From a virus: DNA of 25,414 nt. Where the stretch lies: IMG/VR virus record IMGVR_UViG_3300025276_000199, positions 1 through 25,414 of that record; one strand, 5' to 3'. Both the position numbers and the translations under genes were made by a program. The notes beneath the pieces are model-generated. The model was not told where the DNA came from, did not search any database, and saw only the letters and a program-made list of their open reading frames with translations. Position 1 is the first letter of the stretch. Each line of letters opens with the position of its first letter. Below are positions 8,767 to 25,414 of this stretch, piece by piece.

Positions 8767-11424
8767 ATGCCAAGAGTAGGAAATCAACACTTTCCGTATA
8801 CAGAAGCGGGTTATGCCGCCGCTGCTAGGGCTAAAAAAGCCAGGGGATATCAAACTGGCGGCTCAGTTATGCCTTATGGCAAATCATCTCCGATTAGCAT
8901 CTCTAGTGGAGGTGGGATTAATCCCAACAACATGTTCACAGACCCAAATCATCCTCTCTATGGTAGGTTCCAGGGCGACACAGCGGCATCCTTCAGGGAT
9001 CAGTTAGAAAAGATCATGAAGAATAGACCGACAGCTCCTCGACCCCCTAGACAAGAGGGCGTAGACAGATACCTGCCTGAGGATCCGCGCCAAAGAAATT
9101 TCCCACCATACATCCCTGGACAAGGGGGCGATTATTACCCCCAGCCTTTGCCTCCTCGCTCTTATGGCGATGACATGAGAAACATTCCTTTCATCCCTGG
9201 TGGTGGAGATGCCACTGGGCAGAACCCTCCTCGCTCTTATGGCGATGACATGAGAAACATTCCTTACATCCCTGGTGGTGGAGATGCCACGTTGCGGAAT
9301 ATATTGAGGAAGCATGGGCAGAACCCTCCGCCTTCAAAAAGCGGTGGTATTTTTGGGGGGCAGTATGTAGATGACCCCGAGCTAAATAGGCTTTACAACC
9401 AATTGAAAATGACAATTGCTTCGGGTGGCGGAGTTATAATGCAAACTCCAGAGGAGTCTGCTGCTTCTTCTCAAGCACAAAGACAATTAGAACAACAGAT
9501 TATTGCGGCAGGTGGCAAGCCATATCAGTATTTTACAAGATTGCCACATGGGGGTTTTACAGAAGGAAGAGGTCCAAGACCCGGATACGACCCAATGACG
9601 GGATCGTATCCAGACAATATAAATCAAAGACCCCCTGCTATACCTGATCTTCCTAGACCAGAACTTCCCGATCTTTTTGGCACAAAACCAAGGAAAATGC
9701 CACCCGTGGCACAACCACCAATGTACGACACCACACCTGAATACAAAACTGAGGAGCCTTTTACCTTTAATAGAGAAGTGACCAACAGTTGTTTTGTCGC
9801 TGGTACGCCTATTGATATGGCGGATGGTAGCTCTAAAAACATTGAAGACATTATCGTTGACGATGAAGTTAATACTCAGGATGGCTCACTAGATACAGTT
9901 ACTTTTGTTCATGATATTCCTGAAGCTTTAAGAACGCTTGTTACGATTAATGACAGGATTACCTGTACCGATTCTCATCCTTTCTTAACAGAAGATGGTT
10001 GGAAGTCTTGTAACCCAGAAGCTTCTAAACCGACTTACGAAGAATACGATATTGAGATCGGTCAACTAACAGTTGGTGATAATCTCGTTACTGTTAATGG
10101 TCCAGAAGAAGTTACTGAGCTAATCAGCAGAGAAGAGCTTGCAAAGGTTTATAACTTTACGACTGATAAAACACACACTTATTTAGTCGATGGTGTTGTT
10201 GCGCATAATAAAAGTTATGCACGACCTTTACCTGATGGGTTTGTTGGGCCAACCGTTATAACTAAAGATCAGTACGATGAGCAACCTTACTACAACCCAG
10301 AAACAGGCGAATCGTTCTGGGCTCCCAGCGGAGGTTATAATACTCCTCCAGGCTGGGTACAAGGGACTAAAGAAGATTACGAAATTTCAGAGTTGAATGC
10401 GAAGAGGGGTATGCCTCCAGGATTTACGGCTTCACCCGGCCCAGCAACGATGGCGTTAGTGCCTTTTTACAATCCAACAACAGGCGAATCTTGGACAGCT
10501 CCCAGCGGAGGTTATAGCTCTGCCCCCGGTTGGGTACAAGGGACTAAAGAAGATTACGAAGCATCTTCAGGTGGGGGAACTGATCTTGATCCTAACGCTA
10601 AGGCTTTTCCTAATGCACCGATGGGATCTCCTCGCGCTTCGTTAACTAATGCTGGCTTGGCATACTTGAAACGCACTGGACAACCGATACCAGGCGAAGC
10701 ACCTGCATCTGGAGGAGCTGATCTTGATCCTAACGCTAAGGCTTTTCCTAATGCACCGATGGGATCTCCTCGCGCTTCGTTAACTAATGCTGGCTTGGCA
10801 TATCTGAAACGCACTGGACAACCGATACCAGGCGAAGCATCTTCAGGTGGAGGAGCTGATCCTGATCCTGACGCTATGGCTTTCCCCGATGCACAGCCGG
10901 GAGAACCGGGCTACGGGCTAACTAATTATGGTTTAGGATACATGCGGCGAAAGGGTCAGCAGATACCAGGCGAAGCGCCACCGCCTCAAGCTGATACACC
11001 ACCACCGACTCCACCCCAAGCTCGTAACTACGGTGTAGACAGAGCAGGCAAACCTTTAACAGAAGCTGCCTATAACTGGATTATTAGCCGAGGCGGGAAA
11101 GACTTAAACAATGATGGAAGAATTAATTCGCAAGAACTAGAAGCGTATCACACCGCTCAAGCTGCTCCTCCACCACCGCCACCACCGCCTGTATCTCAAA
11201 ATCTTTTGGGTGGCCAGATGTACGCCAACCAACCATCAGCAACTGCCAACATGACAACAATGCAAAATCCATATGTCTTTGGTGGATATGGTGCTCCGCC
11301 ATCAATGCCGTATGCGGGAATGGCTACTCCCCAGATTCCTTCAATCATGGGGATGTCTCCTCAGGCATACTATGGCGGTTCTGCTCAAGTAGGTATGGCT
11401 GATCCAACACAAAGAGTGTCGTAG
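8767..11424 (+). CDS. Repeat-rich virion-module protein with intein-like Hint domain
   Basis: This 885-residue Pro/Gly-rich protein has a near-perfect AAGGAGG ribosome site. Residues 1-340 are low complexity, with a 25-residue tandem repeat. Residues 342-481 are a Hint (intein-like) domain: CFVAGTPIDMADGS (Cys342 first residue), block B Thr401-Asp-Ser-His404, block F VYNFTTDKTHTYLVDG, and terminal AHN (Asn481). The residue after Asn481 is Lys482, not Cys/Ser/Thr, so it looks like a bacterial intein-like (BIL) domain rather than a standard intein. At 140 residues it has no homing endonuclease. Two YNP-TTGES-type repeats follow, then three 46-residue repeats, a canonical EF-hand loop DLNNDGRINSQE (779-790), and Pro/Tyr/Gly/Met-rich C-terminal 90 residues. 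Role unknown; position suggests a virion or assembly protein that is auto-processed. Confidence 0.75.
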   Translation: MPRVGNQHFPYTEAGYAAAARAKKARGYQTGGSVMPYGKSSPISISSGGGINPNNMFTDPNHPLYGRFQGDTAASFRDQLEKIMKNRPTAPRPPRQEGVDRYLPEDPRQRNFPPYIPGQGGDYYPQPLPPRSYGDDMRNIPFIPGGGDATGQNPPRSYGDDMRNIPYIPGGGDATLRNILRKHGQNPPPSKSGGIFGGQYVDDPELNRLYNQLKMTIASGGGVIMQTPEESAASSQAQRQLEQQIIAAGGKPYQYFTRLPHGGFTEGRGPRPGYDPMTGSYPDNINQRPPAIPDLPRPELPDLFGTKPRKMPPVAQPPMYDTTPEYKTEEPFTFNREVTNSCFVAGTPIDMADGSSKNIEDIIVDDEVNTQDGSLDTVTFVHDIPEALRTLVTINDRITCTDSHPFLTEDGWKSCNPEASKPTYEEYDIEIGQLTVGDNLVTVNGPEEVTELISREELAKVYNFTTDKTHTYLVDGVVAHNKSYARPLPDGFVGPTVITKDQYDEQPYYNPETGESFWAPSGGYNTPPGWVQGTKEDYEISELNAKRGMPPGFTASPGPATMALVPFYNPTTGESWTAPSGGYSSAPGWVQGTKEDYEASSGGGTDLDPNAKAFPNAPMGSPRASLTNAGLAYLKRTGQPIPGEAPASGGADLDPNAKAFPNAPMGSPRASLTNAGLAYLKRTGQPIPGEASSGGGADPDPDAMAFPDAQPGEPGYGLTNYGLGYMRRKGQQIPGEAPPPQADTPPPTPPQARNYGVDRAGKPLTEAAYNWIISRGGKDLNNDGRINSQELEAYHTAQAAPPPPPPPPVSQNLLGGQMYANQPSATANMTTMQNPYVFGGYGAPPSMPYAGMATPQIPSIMGMSPQAYYGGSAQVGMADPTQRVS
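9151..9300 (+). repeat. Two tandem 75-bp in-frame repeats
   Basis: Copies at 9151-9225 and 9226-9300 encode PRSYGDDMRNIPFIPGGGDAT-type units of 25 residues. The main block of about 60 bases is nearly identical between copies, suggesting recent duplication. Confidence 0.8.
10581..10994 (+). repeat. Three tandem 138-bp in-frame repeats
   Basis: The units start at 10581, 10719 and 10857, each 138 bases or 46 residues. The first two are almost identical in DNA (LDPNAKAFPNAPMGSPRASL units), while the third is diverged (DPDAMAFPDAQPGEPGYGL). Each ends with a GQPIPGEA- or GQQIPGEA-type motif. Confidence 0.85.
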
Positions 11425-19513: not shown

Positions 19514-20749
19514 ATGGCTACATACGTCAACAACCTACGAGTAAAAGAGATCGCCACCGGGGATGAATCGGGAACGTGGGGAACAAGCACTAATACCAAC
19601 CTGGAGTTGATAGGTCAGGCGTTAGGCTATGGCACAGAAGGCATTACAACTAATGCTGATACGCATGCCTCTACAGTAGCTGATGGCGCAGCGGATGAGG
19701 CGAGAGCAATATACCTAAAGTATACGGGTACTTTAGACTCTGCCTGTACGATTACTATTGGCCCTAACACAATGAAGCGTTTTCAAATTATAGAAAATGC
19801 AACGAGCGGTAGCCAAAGTATCATTATAAGCCAAGGCAGTGGAGCAAATGTCACCATAGGTACTGGTGCGGTTAAGGCAGTTTACTTAGACGGTGCTGGC
19901 TCTGGAGCCGCAGTATTAGATGCCCTGGTTGATCTTGACTTAACAGGAACAACAACCGCCGCAGCAGTAACTGCTTCTGGTGCGTTAACCGGGGGTACAG
20001 TAGTCGCAGGAAGCTCCAGTGCTGGAACAACTGTTTCCGCAGGAGATATAGCTATTAAAAACGGTGGCGCTCAGTCTACTGTTAAGTTCTATTGTGAAAG
20101 CAGCAACGCGCACTACGCTCAGATACAAGCCCCCGCTCACTCTGCTTTTTCAGGGAATGTAACACTTACTCTACCTGCAACAACCAGTACGATTGTTGGG
20201 GATAGTGCAACTCAAACGCTTACTAATAAAACGCTTACTTCGCCTAAAGTTAATGAAGACGTAGCAGTTACTTCAACAGCCACTGAAATTAACATCCTAG
20301 ATGGAGTAACGTCTACTACAGCAGAACTAAATTACCTCGACATTACTACGCTGGGATTGACCGCAGCATCAAAAGCTGTAACGGCGGATGCTAATGGTGT
20401 GGTAACAAATGACGCTGGTACTTCAGGAGAATACACAGCCGTTACTTCAAGCTCCAATGCAGTGTCCTTAAACTTACGGCTAGGTGATAACTTCAGTCAT
20501 GATTTAACCGAAGCGACTACTGTTTCTTTTGCTAACCCTGCTGCAAGCGGAAAAGTCAGCACGGCTACGTTGCGGGTTATTCAAGGGTCTACAGCTAGAG
20601 CAATTACGTGGCATAGTTCAATCAAGTGGGCTGGTGATACTGCGCCTACGCTCTCAACTGGAGATGATGACGTTGATGTTTTTGTCTTCTACACAGTAGA
20701 TGCCGGGACGACCTATTACGGCTTTACTGCTGGACAGGACATGTCTTAA
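19514..20749 (+). CDS. Tail fibre protein
   Basis: This 411-residue protein has an N-terminal attachment-like segment NLRVKEIATGDESGTWGTST, a form seen at the start of many marine phage fibres. Strand-rich repeats follow, with AVTASGALTGGTVVAGSSSA and DSATQTLTNKTLTSPKVN, the latter a common phage-fibre motif. TATEINILDGVTSTTAELNYLD (about residues 254-275) is the classic fibre repeat. The C-terminal 90 residues form a possible tip domain. Trimeric fibres of this kind bind host surface receptors. GAGGAATAAAC is the ribosome site. It is overlapped at its stop by the LamG gene (TAATG), so the two are coupled. Confidence 0.8.
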   Translation: MATYVNNLRVKEIATGDESGTWGTSTNTNLELIGQALGYGTEGITTNADTHASTVADGAADEARAIYLKYTGTLDSACTITIGPNTMKRFQIIENATSGSQSIIISQGSGANVTIGTGAVKAVYLDGAGSGAAVLDALVDLDLTGTTTAAAVTASGALTGGTVVAGSSSAGTTVSAGDIAIKNGGAQSTVKFYCESSNAHYAQIQAPAHSAFSGNVTLTLPATTSTIVGDSATQTLTNKTLTSPKVNEDVAVTSTATEINILDGVTSTTAELNYLDITTLGLTAASKAVTADANGVVTNDAGTSGEYTAVTSSSNAVSLNLRLGDNFSHDLTEATTVSFANPAASGKVSTATLRVIQGSTARAITWHSSIKWAGDTAPTLSTGDDDVDVFVFYTVDAGTTYYGFTAGQDMS

Positions 20750-22773
20750 TGAGTGGTGCCACTAAAATACTGATGGGTAGTGGTGCTGTTGACCTACCAA
20801 GCGATGATGAGTTTGATAACGTCAGTTTTCTAAGCCATTTTGATGGCTCTAACAATGGCACCAATAGTGCTTATGACGACGGATCAGCCAGCAACCATAC
20901 AATAACTACCGCAGGAACTCCCCCTCAAGGAACCTTTAGTCCTTTTGCTAGAGTAGATGGGGAGTGGTCAAATTATTTTGCTCTTGGTGGCGATGCTCTT
21001 ACATTTACAAATGATGCAACAATGTCGTGGGATGGAGACTTTACAATTGAGTTGTTTTGTAATGTCGGAACTATTGCTACAGAAGGTTCGACTAACCCCT
21101 CTCTGCTTCTTATCGGAAGTATACAGCTATATCTAAATGCGACTTCTGGTAGTCCGAACTTTGTCGCGTTGCATGTGGGCGGTGCTGACATTGTCGAAAG
21201 CGCGGCTGATTCTATTACAACTGGCGTTTGGCATCACATTGCCATTGTGAGGTCGGGATCAGGCACCAACAATCTAAGTTTGTACCTGAATGGTACAAGG
21301 GTTGACCAAGTAACAAACACGGCGACACTAGGCGGATCGTCAGGTACTTCAAGAATTGGTAATTACGCTGATAATCCAGCAGGTGGTATTAATGGGTATA
21401 TGTCTAATGTGCGTATATTAAAAGGCACTGCCTTGTATTCTGGCTCAAGCATAACGGTTCCAACATCAGCACTTACTGCAATTACAAATACCAAGCTGCT
21501 AACTTGTCAATCTAATAGGTTTATAGATAATTCTTCGACAGGTTTTTCTCTTACAGTAGTAGAAACTCCTCGACCAGCCGCTTTTACTCCTATCCTAACC
21601 AGCAAGGTATATGACTCAGCGGTCAACGGGGCGGGCGCTTATTTTAATGGCTCCAGTGACTACCTGACCCTTGCATCTTCAGCAGACTTTGGAATGGGTA
21701 CTGGTAACTTTACTTGGGAAGCGTGGATTTACCAGACATATCGACATGGATCATTGTGGCAGCAGTTATTCTCAACTGACAATTACTCTACTGGGAACAA
21801 TATCAGCATCTGGCTCACCAGCTCTGGGACTGTTGCTATTTATTATGTAGGCGGCTCGTCTTCTTTTACAACTACCTCATCATTTCCAATAAATACTTGG
21901 ACGCACATTGCTATTGTTCGCAAAGGAACGGGAACAAACGAGTTTTCAATCTACATTAACGGGGTGGCTGGCATTACAGGGACAATGGGAACAGATTTTC
22001 CCGATGATGGAATCACAATTGCACGGCACGGATCTGGTACTACCAATTACTACTATGGGTATATATCAGATTTTAGAATAGTAAAAGGGACAGCGGTATA
22101 CACTGGCAACTTTACACCACCAACAGCACCGCTCACAGCAGTCACCAACACTAAACTTCTGCTCAACATGGCTGATGGGCAAGCAATTGATAGTGCAGCA
22201 CAGAATAATATAACGCTAGTTGCTAATGCTGACACCAGCACAACTCAGGCTAAGTTTGGCACAGCTTCTCTAGCTTTAGATGGAACAGGCGACTATGTAA
22301 CTCTTCCTTATGAATCTTTTGCACCTTTTGGTACAGGCAATTTTACTATTGAGGGCTGGGTATACTTTACAGCTAATGATAACGGTGGCGGTGTTTTTCA
22401 ACTCAGTAACGGATACCTCAACTCACAAGTCAGAGGGCCAACACTGGGGCTTGATGGGAGTAGTGACAATTGGAGGTGGTACTACGGCACTTCAAGTGCG
22501 AGTCACGGAAGTGTCGGGCCAAGCGTAGACACTTGGTATCATTTTGCGTGGGTTAGAAATTCTGGTACATCAAAAGTGTACATTGATGGCACTGAAATAT
22601 TAACGGCTTCTGACGCAACAAATTATACTGATACTTACTTTACAATCGGTGCTTATTACAACAGCTCTTTGGAGTTAAACGGCTATATTGACGAATTTAG
22701 AATCAGCCATATAGCTCGTTACACCAGCAACTTCACCCCCACGACAGAAGTATTCCCGGACAAAGGACAATAA
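20749..22773 (+). CDS. Three-domain LamG (concanavalin A-like) adhesin
   Basis: This 674-residue protein is built from three LamG-like beta-sandwich domains at about residues 20-240, 280-460 and 465-670. Each has the FTIELF / FTWEAWIY / FTIEGWVYF core strand (near 97, 319, 530), TGVWHHIAIVR / INTWTHIAIVR / VDTWYHFAWVR, and a closing GYMSNVRILKGTALY / GYISDFRIVKGTAVY / GYIDEFRISHIARY motif. LamG-type modules bind carbohydrates and proteins, so it is probably a receptor-binding fibre or tail spike tip. It has no signal peptide. It starts on the stop of the fibre gene (TAATG). The three copies differ clearly in sequence, so the triplication is old. Confidence 0.85.
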   Translation: MSGATKILMGSGAVDLPSDDEFDNVSFLSHFDGSNNGTNSAYDDGSASNHTITTAGTPPQGTFSPFARVDGEWSNYFALGGDALTFTNDATMSWDGDFTIELFCNVGTIATEGSTNPSLLLIGSIQLYLNATSGSPNFVALHVGGADIVESAADSITTGVWHHIAIVRSGSGTNNLSLYLNGTRVDQVTNTATLGGSSGTSRIGNYADNPAGGINGYMSNVRILKGTALYSGSSITVPTSALTAITNTKLLTCQSNRFIDNSSTGFSLTVVETPRPAAFTPILTSKVYDSAVNGAGAYFNGSSDYLTLASSADFGMGTGNFTWEAWIYQTYRHGSLWQQLFSTDNYSTGNNISIWLTSSGTVAIYYVGGSSSFTTTSSFPINTWTHIAIVRKGTGTNEFSIYINGVAGITGTMGTDFPDDGITIARHGSGTTNYYYGYISDFRIVKGTAVYTGNFTPPTAPLTAVTNTKLLLNMADGQAIDSAAQNNITLVANADTSTTQAKFGTASLALDGTGDYVTLPYESFAPFGTGNFTIEGWVYFTANDNGGGVFQLSNGYLNSQVRGPTLGLDGSSDNWRWYYGTSSASHGSVGPSVDTWYHFAWVRNSGTSKVYIDGTEILTASDATNYTDTYFTIGAYYNSSLELNGYIDEFRISHIARYTSNFTPTTEVFPDKGQ

Positions 22774-22775
22774 TT

Positions 22776-23267
22776 ATGATGAAAATAGCCCAGTTAGATG
22801 GCTCAAATATTGGGGATATTGCCGAATGTACAGCTTTGTTTCCCAACACCAGCTTCCCTAAAAGTGGCCCTGACGCAGAGTGGTTAACGCTTAATGAGTG
22901 CGCTGAAGTCGTAACATTCCTACCCTTTGATGCTGCTACGCAAAAGAATGAAAGCGTTACGCCATACCTATCAGGTGGCAAGGTCTATACCCGTCGTGTG
23001 ACTAACATGACTGATGCAGAAAAAGCAGCAGTGGTCACAGCAAATAATGCAACAGCGGCTGTAAATAACAGAGCGCAAAGAGATGCGTTGTTATCGGAGT
23101 CTGATTGGATGGTCATTAAATCCCAAGAAACTAGCACGACACTAAACTCTAGCTGGGCGACTTATCGACAGGCGTTACGAGATATTACGGCTCATGAAAA
23201 CTGGCCTAATTTAACGTCAGCGGCCCAAGATGGAAGTGGTGGGGATTGGCCCGCCGCACCAGAATAG
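22776..23267 (+). CDS. Tail fibre assembly chaperone-like protein
   Basis: This 163-residue protein is probably a fibre-folding chaperone or tip-associated protein. Residues about 97-150 resemble the phage tail assembly chaperone (APC) domain: RDALLSESDWMVIKSQ, SWATYRQALRDITAHENWP, and a C-terminal Trp-Pro. This domain is typically the last gene of a tail-fibre operon, which fits its place after the fibre and LamG genes. The first 90 residues (acidic, with FPNTSFPKSGPDAEWL) are less clear. AAGGACAATAATT gives a ribosome site 8 bases before the first of two ATGs. The domain name is from memory of the motif. Confidence 0.75.
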   Translation: MMKIAQLDGSNIGDIAECTALFPNTSFPKSGPDAEWLTLNECAEVVTFLPFDAATQKNESVTPYLSGGKVYTRRVTNMTDAEKAAVVTANNATAAVNNRAQRDALLSESDWMVIKSQETSTTLNSSWATYRQALRDITAHENWPNLTSAAQDGSGGDWPAAPE

Positions 23268-23311
23268 AACGATAGTGGTGGATGAAAACTTTCTATGGTT
23301 TGGGAGCTACC

Positions 23312-24754
23312 ATGAAAAAAGTATTTATCTTCGTAGCTGCCCTGGCTATGTTAACTCCTGTGAACCTGTTTGCCGCCCAATCGGGTAACTGTACGGCTGG
23401 TACAGAATTCTGTGAAGATAATAACCAGACGACTACTTCGACAGGAACGAATACCAACACCAATACCAACACGAACACCAATACAAATACCAATACAAAC
23501 GCTAACACCAATACCAACACAAGTACGTCAACGGCTACAAATACTAACGCCAATACCAACACCAACACCAACACAAATACCAACGCTAACACCAACGTCA
23601 ACACCAATACCAACACGAACACAAATACAAACGCCAACACCAATGTGAACACCAATACCAACACTAATGTGAGCACAAATACCAACGCTAACACCAATAC
23701 GAACACTAATACCAACGCGAATACCAACACGAATACTAACGTGAATACAAATACCAACGCTAATACAAACACAAACGCTAATACTAATAGTACGACCTAT
23801 AGTGGGAGCAATACTAATACCAACACCAATACCAACACCAACACCAACACCAACGCTAATACCAATACGAATACAAATAACAGCACCAGCAATAATACAA
23901 ATAACAATGTAAGTTCGGGCGGTACAAATAACACTAACGCGAATACTAATACGAACAATAGTACTAGCAACAATACAAATAATAATATCAATACCAATAG
24001 CAGTACTAACACCAATACCAATACCAATAGCAGTGCTAACACCAACACGAACACTAATGTTAATACTAATAATTCAACGGTAAATTCAACGGCTAATAAC
24101 AACAACACAAATACAAATACGTCAACTGTTGATCAAAATGTTAATAGTAATAGCGCATCGAATAACACGAATACCAATACTAGTACTTCAGACAGCACAT
24201 CGAATAATAGCAACACCAATACTAATAAGAGTGAAAGTACGTCAGATAGTAATGTGACAACAAACAACAAGAATGAAAATACTAACAAGAACGAAAATAC
24301 TAATAAGAACGAAACCAACCAAACAATTAAGCAGGAGATTACAACAAAGGCACCTCCTGCAAGTGCAATAGCGCCCTCCATTGGTGCTAGTTACTCTCAG
24401 GATTTATGTACCACGGGCATCAGTGGAGCTTTCCAAGGACAATTATTTGGTTTTGCGGCAGGTAAAAGCGTTAGGGATATGAATTGTGAGCGTATTAAAT
24501 TATCTAAGACGCTTTATGATATGGGGATGAAAGTTGCGGCAGTGAGTTTGATGTGCCAAGACGAACGAGTTTTTACTTCTATGATGATGGCTGGCACTCC
24601 TTGCCCTTATGAAGGAGAAATTGGAGAAGCAGCTCGGCTTGCATGGGAAGACAATATAGCTCAAAGACCCGACAAAAAAGCATACCTCAAGAAGATAACG
24701 CCTACTAGAGCAGAAAGGAAAGCAGCAAGACTTAAAGCAAAAGAAAAAGGATGA
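23312..24754 (+). CDS. Secreted Asn-Thr repeat protein with Cys-rich C-terminal domain
   Basis: I place the start at 23312 (MKKVFIFVAALAMLTPVNLFA), which gives a classic Sec signal peptide and a GGGAG ribosome site; an upstream in-frame ATG at 23282 would spoil it. The predicted cleavage is near residue 21. After a short Cys pair region (NCTAGTEFC), residues 46 to about 340 are Asn-Thr alternation with Ala, Ser and Val substitutions. The C-terminal 117 residues (from 364) carry four cysteines (Cys366, and those in MNC, LMC and TPCP), suggesting two disulfides in an oxidising compartment. 480 residues in all. The product would go to the host periplasm or surface. Function unknown; it is followed by a second secreted gene in an ATGA overlap. 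Confidence 0.8.
   Translation: MKKVFIFVAALAMLTPVNLFAAQSGNCTAGTEFCEDNNQTTTSTGTNTNTNTNTNTNTNTNTNANTNTNTSTSTATNTNANTNTNTNTNTNANTNVNTNTNTNTNTNANTNVNTNTNTNVSTNTNANTNTNTNTNANTNTNTNVNTNTNANTNTNANTNSTTYSGSNTNTNTNTNTNTNTNANTNTNTNNSTSNNTNNNVSSGGTNNTNANTNTNNSTSNNTNNNINTNSSTNTNTNTNSSANTNTNTNVNTNNSTVNSTANNNNTNTNTSTVDQNVNSNSASNNTNTNTSTSDSTSNNSNTNTNKSESTSDSNVTTNNKNENTNKNENTNKNETNQTIKQEITTKAPPASAIAPSIGASYSQDLCTTGISGAFQGQLFGFAAGKSVRDMNCERIKLSKTLYDMGMKVAAVSLMCQDERVFTSMMMAGTPCPYEGEIGEAARLAWEDNIAQRPDKKAYLKKITPTRAERKAARLKAKEKG
23447..24330 (+). repeat. Asn-Thr low-complexity tract
   Basis: Roughly 290 codons alternate Asn and Thr, at first almost strictly and then with Ser, Ala, Val and Lys inserted. Asn uses both AAT and AAC and Thr uses ACA, ACC, ACG and ACT in scrambled order, so the amino-acid pattern is better conserved than the DNA. 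Confidence 0.9.
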
Positions 24755-25414
24755 AAAAACTTCTTTTGCTGCTAGGGATTCTGTTTGCTGCTAATGCAAT
24801 AGCAGACAATAACAGCGCCTGTTCTAACAGCCAAGATTGCTACAATAGCGGTGTATACATCTATGAGGGTGGTCAAGACCTTGTAGATCTCTATAACATG
24901 TCAGGTACTACCAACTTAAACGCTGGTGACGATCAATATTCAAGCCAAGTATCTCTTGGGATGGAATGGAATCGTTGGGGACAAACTTGGTCACATGCCA
25001 GAATGTCTACTAATGGGTGTTTAAACCTTAGAAGTGGATCGGCTGGAGGTAATTCAGCTAACTGTTTAGATTTTACACCTCAGTCCTTACCTTACAGAGA
25101 CTACACCTTATATCCTCTATGGACTGATTTAATCAGGGGTACAGCGTCAGGAGGACAAACCTCTAAGATGTTGTTTAAAGACTTCGGAGACTATGCTGTC
25201 TTTGGTTGGTATTACCTAAGAGAGTTTCAAAGAAGTTCAAGCAATAGTTTTGAAGCAATCCTTTACGCCAATAACTCATACGAATTCAGATACAGAGAGT
25301 TAGACATTATTAACCATGATGTTGTTATAGGCGAACAAGGGAAACACTCTACTACCCCGGAAGATACCAAAACATTCTTATACTACAATGATGGTCAGAG
25401 TGGTTACGTTACAT
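24751..25414 (+). CDS. Secreted nidogen-like protein (partial, runs off window)
   Basis: An open frame from ATG 24751 runs to the right edge without a stop (221 full codons seen). It begins with a Sec signal peptide, MKKLLLLLGILFAANAIA, cleaved after residue 18. The mature protein has cysteines early (CSNSQDC) and later (GCLNLR, NCLDF). The segment SLPYRDYTLYPLWTDLI, followed by MLFKDFGDYAVFGWYYLREFQRSS and FEAILYANNSYEFRYREL, resembles the nidogen-like (NIDO) extracellular domain. The ATGA overlap with the Asn-Thr gene means co-expression and hints at a joint surface role. Family match is by pattern only; the C-terminal part is not in view. Confidence 0.75.
   Translation, partial: MKKLLLLLGILFAANAIADNNSACSNSQDCYNSGVYIYEGGQDLVDLYNMSGTTNLNAGDDQYSSQVSLGMEWNRWGQTWSHARMSTNGCLNLRSGSAGGNSANCLDFTPQSLPYRDYTLYPLWTDLIRGTASGGQTSKMLFKDFGDYAVFGWYYLREFQRSSSNSFEAILYANNSYEFRYRELDIINHDVVIGEQGKHSTTPEDTKTFLYYNDGQSGYVT

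Follow-up and report, generated by a model that had tools for sequence, protein, structure and literature searches.

The superinfection-exclusion proteins Sp and Imm of T4 and Llp of T5 are small exported or membrane proteins that reside in the envelope of the infected cell, and each is a single, early protein. The literature discusses the curli modules carried by marine phages as devices for superinfection or "sibling capture" (PMC9599517, PMC7029224). Here we describe an exported phage protein that can be compared with these systems and with the spanins Rz/Rz1. It is encoded near the end of the window, the whole stretch of 25,414 nucleotides of viral DNA that was analysed (IMG/VR record IMGVR_UViG_3300025276_000199). 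A preliminary description had assigned to this gene, hereafter A, a Sec signal peptide, about 290 residues of Asn-Thr alternation and a C-terminal domain with four cysteines, and all three are present in its 480-amino-acid product. Beyond that description, our main point is that A is the first gene of a conserved three-gene unit, A-B-C, of which the Asn-Thr tract is the variable part. The features concerned are:

22776..23267, + strand: tail fibre assembly chaperone, upstream neighbour of gene A (PF16778, E 6.6e-14; phrog_4912)
23312..24754, + strand: complete gene A, the Asn-Thr repeat gene, an open reading frame uninterrupted by stops (480 aa)
23312..23377, + strand: Sec signal peptide of A, residues 1-22, MKKVFIFVAALAMLTPVNLFAA, without lipobox (from sequence)
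23378..23446, + strand: mature N-terminus of A with the pair C27-x6-C34 (from sequence)
23447..24316, + strand: Asn/Thr tract of A, residues 46-335 (from composition, codons, register and landmarks)
24350..24661, + strand: PPxSAxAP-type linker and four-Cys helical domain of A, which defines the family, phrog_20531 (from conservation, AlphaFold2 and dN/dS)
24751..25413, + strand: gene B, cut by the contig end, with signal peptide and beta-sandwich domain; its start overlaps the stop of A (ATGA)

Elsewhere in the window, a large virion-like protein (8767-11424) carries a Hint/intein-like insert (CFVAGTPIDM...VAHNKS; PF05203, E 1.3e-7) together with two tandem repeats, one of 138 bp (x2.4) and one of 75 bp (x1.9), a tail protein (20749-22773) has three Laminin_G_3 domains (PF13385, E 4.9e-52), and a match to PF17338, "Gene product 88" (262-972, - strand, E 1.2e-34), is encoded on the other strand from the late genes.

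A Shine-Dalgarno-like GGGAG stands immediately 5' of the ATG of gene A, and an alternative upstream start at 23282 would lengthen the product by 10 residues. The four C-terminal cysteines (C366, C392, C415 and C431) are invariant among relatives, and a pair akin to C27/C34 is found in 24 of 65 window-like relatives and in none of the pelagiphage-type members. Compared with its relative in L003, gene A has a dN/dS of 0.06 in the C-terminal domain and 0.07 at the N-terminus, both of which are under strong purifying selection; no value was retained for the tract, where repeats align to themselves and the alignment is unreliable. With these low values and a reading frame that is open in relatives, the gene is not a broken remnant, a finding that would have spoken against the preliminary description. 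The AlphaFold2 model of A is confident only for the C-terminal helices (pLDDT 88-94 at residues 411-480); a fold search of the PDB with this model returned no match and a Pfam search at E 0.1 no family. A crude signal-peptide score was passed by 220 of 271 A family members, compared with 14% of background ORFs. The locus in L002 is nearly identical to the window across the first 440 codons of A and departs from it thereafter (window 24635-24754), which suggests a recombination joint inside the gene.

Members of the A family turned up at 279 loci, spread over at least three phage lineages, namely SU10-like podoviruses, pelagiphage types and the CRP-810 roseophage type. Searches with the four-Cys domain, which is absent from Pfam, gave at least 560 matches in IMG/VR and matched 11 phage records, including the Pelagibacter phages HTVC115P, HTVC202P, HTVC023P, HTVC033P, Mosig and Baldr and the Roseobacter phages CRP-207 and CRP-810; in GTDB only 27 contigs were matched, all of them metagenome-assembled, binned or single-cell assemblies. 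The phrog_20531 profile covers this domain and matches 55 of 55 A members tested (best E 1.5e-17; window protein E 2.4e-14), and one member additionally matches phrog_5960 weakly, no other PHROGs family being matched. The search for the C-terminal domain that had been proposed earlier thus finds it widespread in phages, and the protein, then judged odd for a phage, belongs to a family common in marine phages.

In the first set of loci, all 82 that leave room for it have a candidate gene B after A, an overlap of a few or some tens of bases between the two genes being usual. The L002 copy, which is complete, encodes 971 amino acids. B proteins are built from a variable N-terminal domain, a low-complexity acidic or Gln-rich linker and a loosely kept C-terminus, and the N-terminal domain switches type between relatives. 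The domain of the L049 protein that corresponds to window B was modelled by AlphaFold2 as a beta-sandwich (pLDDT ~95), for which the PDB gave no significant match and the significant viral structure matches were proteins without a useful name; a NIDO-type domain was considered for B by eye only and was dropped, full-length B proteins having no Pfam match at E 0.01. The dN/dS of B is 0.01-0.11, and the signal-peptide scores of A and B are both far above those of background ORFs. Gene C encodes a protein with one N-terminal membrane segment, a coiled coil and a C-terminal Asn-Pro-Leu (NPL), and was found with an iterated profile at 170 of 170 loci extending at least 3.8 kb past A (53 window-like, 11 from named phages, 15 from GTDB, 41 pelagiphage-type and 50 roseophage-type). 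Membership of C is partly a matter of coiled-coil similarity; the NPL tail, which is not explicable by the coiled coil, provides an independent check, as 199 of 201 complete C proteins have it compared with 7 of 1371 background ORFs. The order A-B-C is constant at all loci with enough sequence, across distant phages. That A is part of a three-gene phage unit, conserved and exported, is established. No function for any of the three proteins emerged from sequence searches of Pfam, PHROGs and the PDB, and literature searches, which did not extend to supplementary tables, found the curli modules and neither a description of the trio nor virion proteomics of a carrier; with no published description found, the trio is previously undescribed. 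Its identification bears on several GenBank phage annotations whose names look wrong: two "lysozyme" entries, CRP-207_gp73 (L087:3292-3873) and CRP-810_gp51 (L086:6165-6587), are gene C, the "OmpA family protein" CRP-810_gp53 (L086:4779-5534) is gene A, and the "transport protein tonB" of ctXG6705 (L088:7230-8336) is gene B.

In the window the trio comes after the tail fibre and tail fibre chaperone genes, with C lying past the contig end, and some relatives have the same late-gene position; in the T7-like S28-C10 it lies between the tail fibre genes and terminase, where T7 has its holin and spanin genes. In the near relative L002, genes for small membrane proteins, a lipoprotein and a lipase come next after C, and then those for a membrane protein with an EF-hand-like motif and for a GH24 lysozyme. 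A gene for a peptidoglycan hydrolase (GH24, GH19, M15 or another type) occurs within 3 kb upstream or 4 kb downstream of the trio in 38 of 76 representatives (8/25 window-like, 4/11 named, 3/10 GTDB, 12/17 pelagiphage-type and 11/13 roseophage-type), counts of which some part is expected by chance in genomes of 40-60 kb and in which representatives of the same lineage are not independent. In pelagiphage-type loci the hydrolase gene often begins at the stop codon of C. These adjoining endolysins belong to unrelated families, which suggests a role of the trio in late envelope breakdown or its timing. A constant association with lysozyme does not hold, the endolysin being distant in the ~160-kb contigs, HTVC115P, Baldr and HTVC202P. 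Class 3 lipase genes, possible helpers of membrane breakdown, lie between C and the lysozyme in L002 (10304-10909, Lipase_3 E 2.8e-17) and L022 (8908-9642); the lipases of L022 and L065 were matched by iterated profile. Small proteins with EF-hand-like DADGDG or DINGDG motifs are encoded near the endolysin in L002 (10906-11235) and, 8 bases after C, in L211, and they occur in both SU10-like and roseophage-type loci.

A substitute for spanins was a strong candidate reading of the trio. The Rz family PF03245 scored above cut-off in 0 of 19 trio carriers, and phrog_739 was weakly matched by 2 of 49 C members (best E 5.8e-6), a profile that also matches 9 of 14 control genomes. As a test for an o-spanin, that is, a lipoprotein partner with a lipobox, the lipobox was called in A of 1 of 76 representatives and in B of none. 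Moreover, two ~165-kb marine phage contigs that carry A-B-C have, elsewhere, an overlapping Rz-like and lipoprotein gene pair:

L282:175-594 and 527-910, - strand: Rz-like/lipoprotein pair, overlapping genes
L283:553-933 and 866-1369, + strand: Rz-like/lipoprotein pair, overlapping genes

This coexistence argues that the trio is not a simple spanin replacement and, together with the lipobox result, lowered our estimate of that idea. One lineage has the trio embedded in a curli module: L012 reads CsgG, curlin, FecR, second curlin, A, B, C and adenylate cyclase (CsgG is named from Pfam, while the other names rest on sequence and on analogy to the published module), and the curlin, FecR and cyclase matches of L014 and L017 represent parts of a module of this type. 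CsgG was found in 2 of 52 records, many of which are fragments.

The tract itself comprises 125 Asn, 93 Thr, 31 Ser, 14 Ala and 10 Val in 290 residues, Asn and Thr making up 75%. Asn is encoded by AAT (71) and AAC (54) and Thr by all four codons, which upholds the mixing of synonymous codons noted earlier, except that ACC is over-used for Thr (42%, against 17% in the other genes of the window): Thr codon use in the tract is not fully neutral. Exact DNA repeats reach at most 25 nt, compared with a mean maximum of 21.5 (17-32) in codon-shuffled tracts, so the tract is not a recent DNA duplication. The alternation described for the tract is most regular in about its first half; the later part is more irregular and the landmarks TTYSGS and VSSGG interrupt it; TTY-[ST]-G and SGG landmarks recur above shuffled expectation and are common to pelagiphage-type members too. 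Substitutions follow the slots. The position flanked by NT and TN is restricted to N, S or T (561, 71 and 7), and the one between TN and NT is taken by T, N, V, A, S, I or L and by a small number of other residues. Overall, the N slot accepts N, S, T and some G and the other slot T, N, V, I and A. Over whole tracts, charged residues fall almost exclusively in the Thr slot and one parity is kept by 89% of Thr. By autocorrelation the two-residue register is undecayed up to lag 40, with no period beyond two residues and no rung-like period, and AlphaFold2, weak evidence for a sequence of this kind, gives the tract a pLDDT of ~30 and no structure. Consequently, the beta-solenoid or ice-binding repeat suggested in the preliminary description, for which structure prediction had been proposed, is unsupported, and no fold match speaks for it. 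N-glycosylation is also disfavoured, N-x-S/T sites being rarer in the tracts (1587) than in shuffled ones (2292). Tract length varies among relatives from about 12 to 400 residues, and many A family members have almost no tract; the span from signal peptide to domain is ~33-133 residues in roseophage and pelagiphage types and down to 14 in some named phages, which points to the long tract as a lineage-specific expansion.

Considering the tract only, this expansion might be neutral and microsatellite-like, a mere linker beside a four-Cys domain that alone matters. The wide range of lengths agrees with it, as do dipeptide slippage, which would preserve the register of period-2 units, and the ACC excess, which hints at an old repeat unit. 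However, the codons are scrambled, D, K, H, Y and I are one base away and do not enter the NT?TN position, and the TTY-[ST]-G landmarks are retained beyond shuffled expectation; we regard a neutral origin as rather unlikely. The slot-specific substitutions fit selection for a polar, two-faced chain, although slippage could also hold the register. The reading first proposed, of an exported protein whose amino-acid pattern is under selection, is supported. The same register, persistent to lag 40 with its slot-specific residue sets, could instead belong to an amyloid-like strand of an extracellular beta-fibre exported through the phage curli (type VIII) channel, and the position of the trio between curlin genes and adenylate cyclase in L012, with partial modules in L014 and L017, would suit it. 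Nevertheless, A matches neither curlin nor any other Pfam family, AlphaFold2 gives the tract no structure, 50 of 52 records are without CsgG and many family members are nearly free of the tract, so that A as a curli subunit fails for most carriers and a fibre is improbable.

For the trio as a whole, it is still more improbable that A and B are virion or tail-associated proteins whose signal peptide is simply a hydrophobic N-terminus. Tail fibre genes adjoin the trio and tail proteins can carry lectin-like domains, but signal-peptide-like N-termini recur in A and B across lineages, the four invariant cysteines are as expected of an exported protein, the linkage to the membrane protein C is constant, and in several isolates the trio lies away from tail genes. 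Remodelling of the surface or periplasm, by which A-B-C would block superinfection or alter adhesion of the infected cell with the variable beta-sandwich of B as binding part, is a different matter: the Rz/Rz1-like pair in the ~165-kb carriers and the one curli-embedded lineage keep it viable. A and B are exported, the N-terminal domain of B changes type while its C-terminal stretch is loosely kept, and the curli modules, in one of which the trio occurs once, have been discussed in the same sense (PMC9599517, PMC7029224). The late-gene and lysis-gene surroundings, the missing outer-membrane export partner in most carriers (CsgG in 2/52 records) and the lack of a lipobox in A and B speak against this reading, which is rather unlikely and yet a serious rival.

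We tentatively favour a late step in which A-B-C helps or times envelope breakdown and the release of progeny. A would be the exported four-Cys subunit of a three-protein module in the envelope of a Gram-negative host, a complex that we infer to be anchored by C. The latter would be an inner-membrane protein whose coiled coil projects into the periplasm, where the disulfide-bonded domain of A and the C-terminal domain of B would dock on it; the Asn/Thr tract of A and the acidic or Gln-rich linker and variable beta-sandwich of B may then extend towards the cell wall or outer membrane. The tract would serve as a soluble, neutral, two-faced spacer, free to vary in length and neither ice-binding nor a solenoid, and the trio would work beside holin, endolysin and, where present, spanins. 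Put more broadly, and with somewhat greater reserve, A-B-C could be a hitherto undescribed machine of three components that crosses the host envelope and has spread over marine tailed phages unrelated to each other. A coiled coil would anchor it in the inner membrane, a disulfide hub would join its parts and its outward-facing domains would be interchangeable; it would be used to break down the envelope late in infection, to time lysis or to control superinfection. If the trio acts in envelope breakdown or superinfection control, it would fill a gap in how marine phages leave or guard SAR11 and roseobacter hosts.

Of the systems already known, phrog_20531 (PHROGs v4) and A are one protein family, and the library entry of this phrog records no function. 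The superinfection-exclusion proteins of T4 and T5, compared by description, have no B-like or C-like partners. The curli/type VIII secretion modules of pelagiphages and an OM43 phage (PMC9599517, PMC7029224, PMC9004378) likewise consist of exported marine-phage proteins, and in L012 the trio sits inside one; unlike their curlins, A has a Cys-rich domain, no curlin match and mostly no CsgG alongside. The two-component spanins Rz/Rz1 (PF03245, phrog_739) resemble the trio in that C shares an i-spanin-like layout, with N-terminal membrane segment and coiled coil, and in that the trio, too, often has lysis-gene neighbours, whereas A and B are without lipobox and the trio consists of three genes with large exported products.
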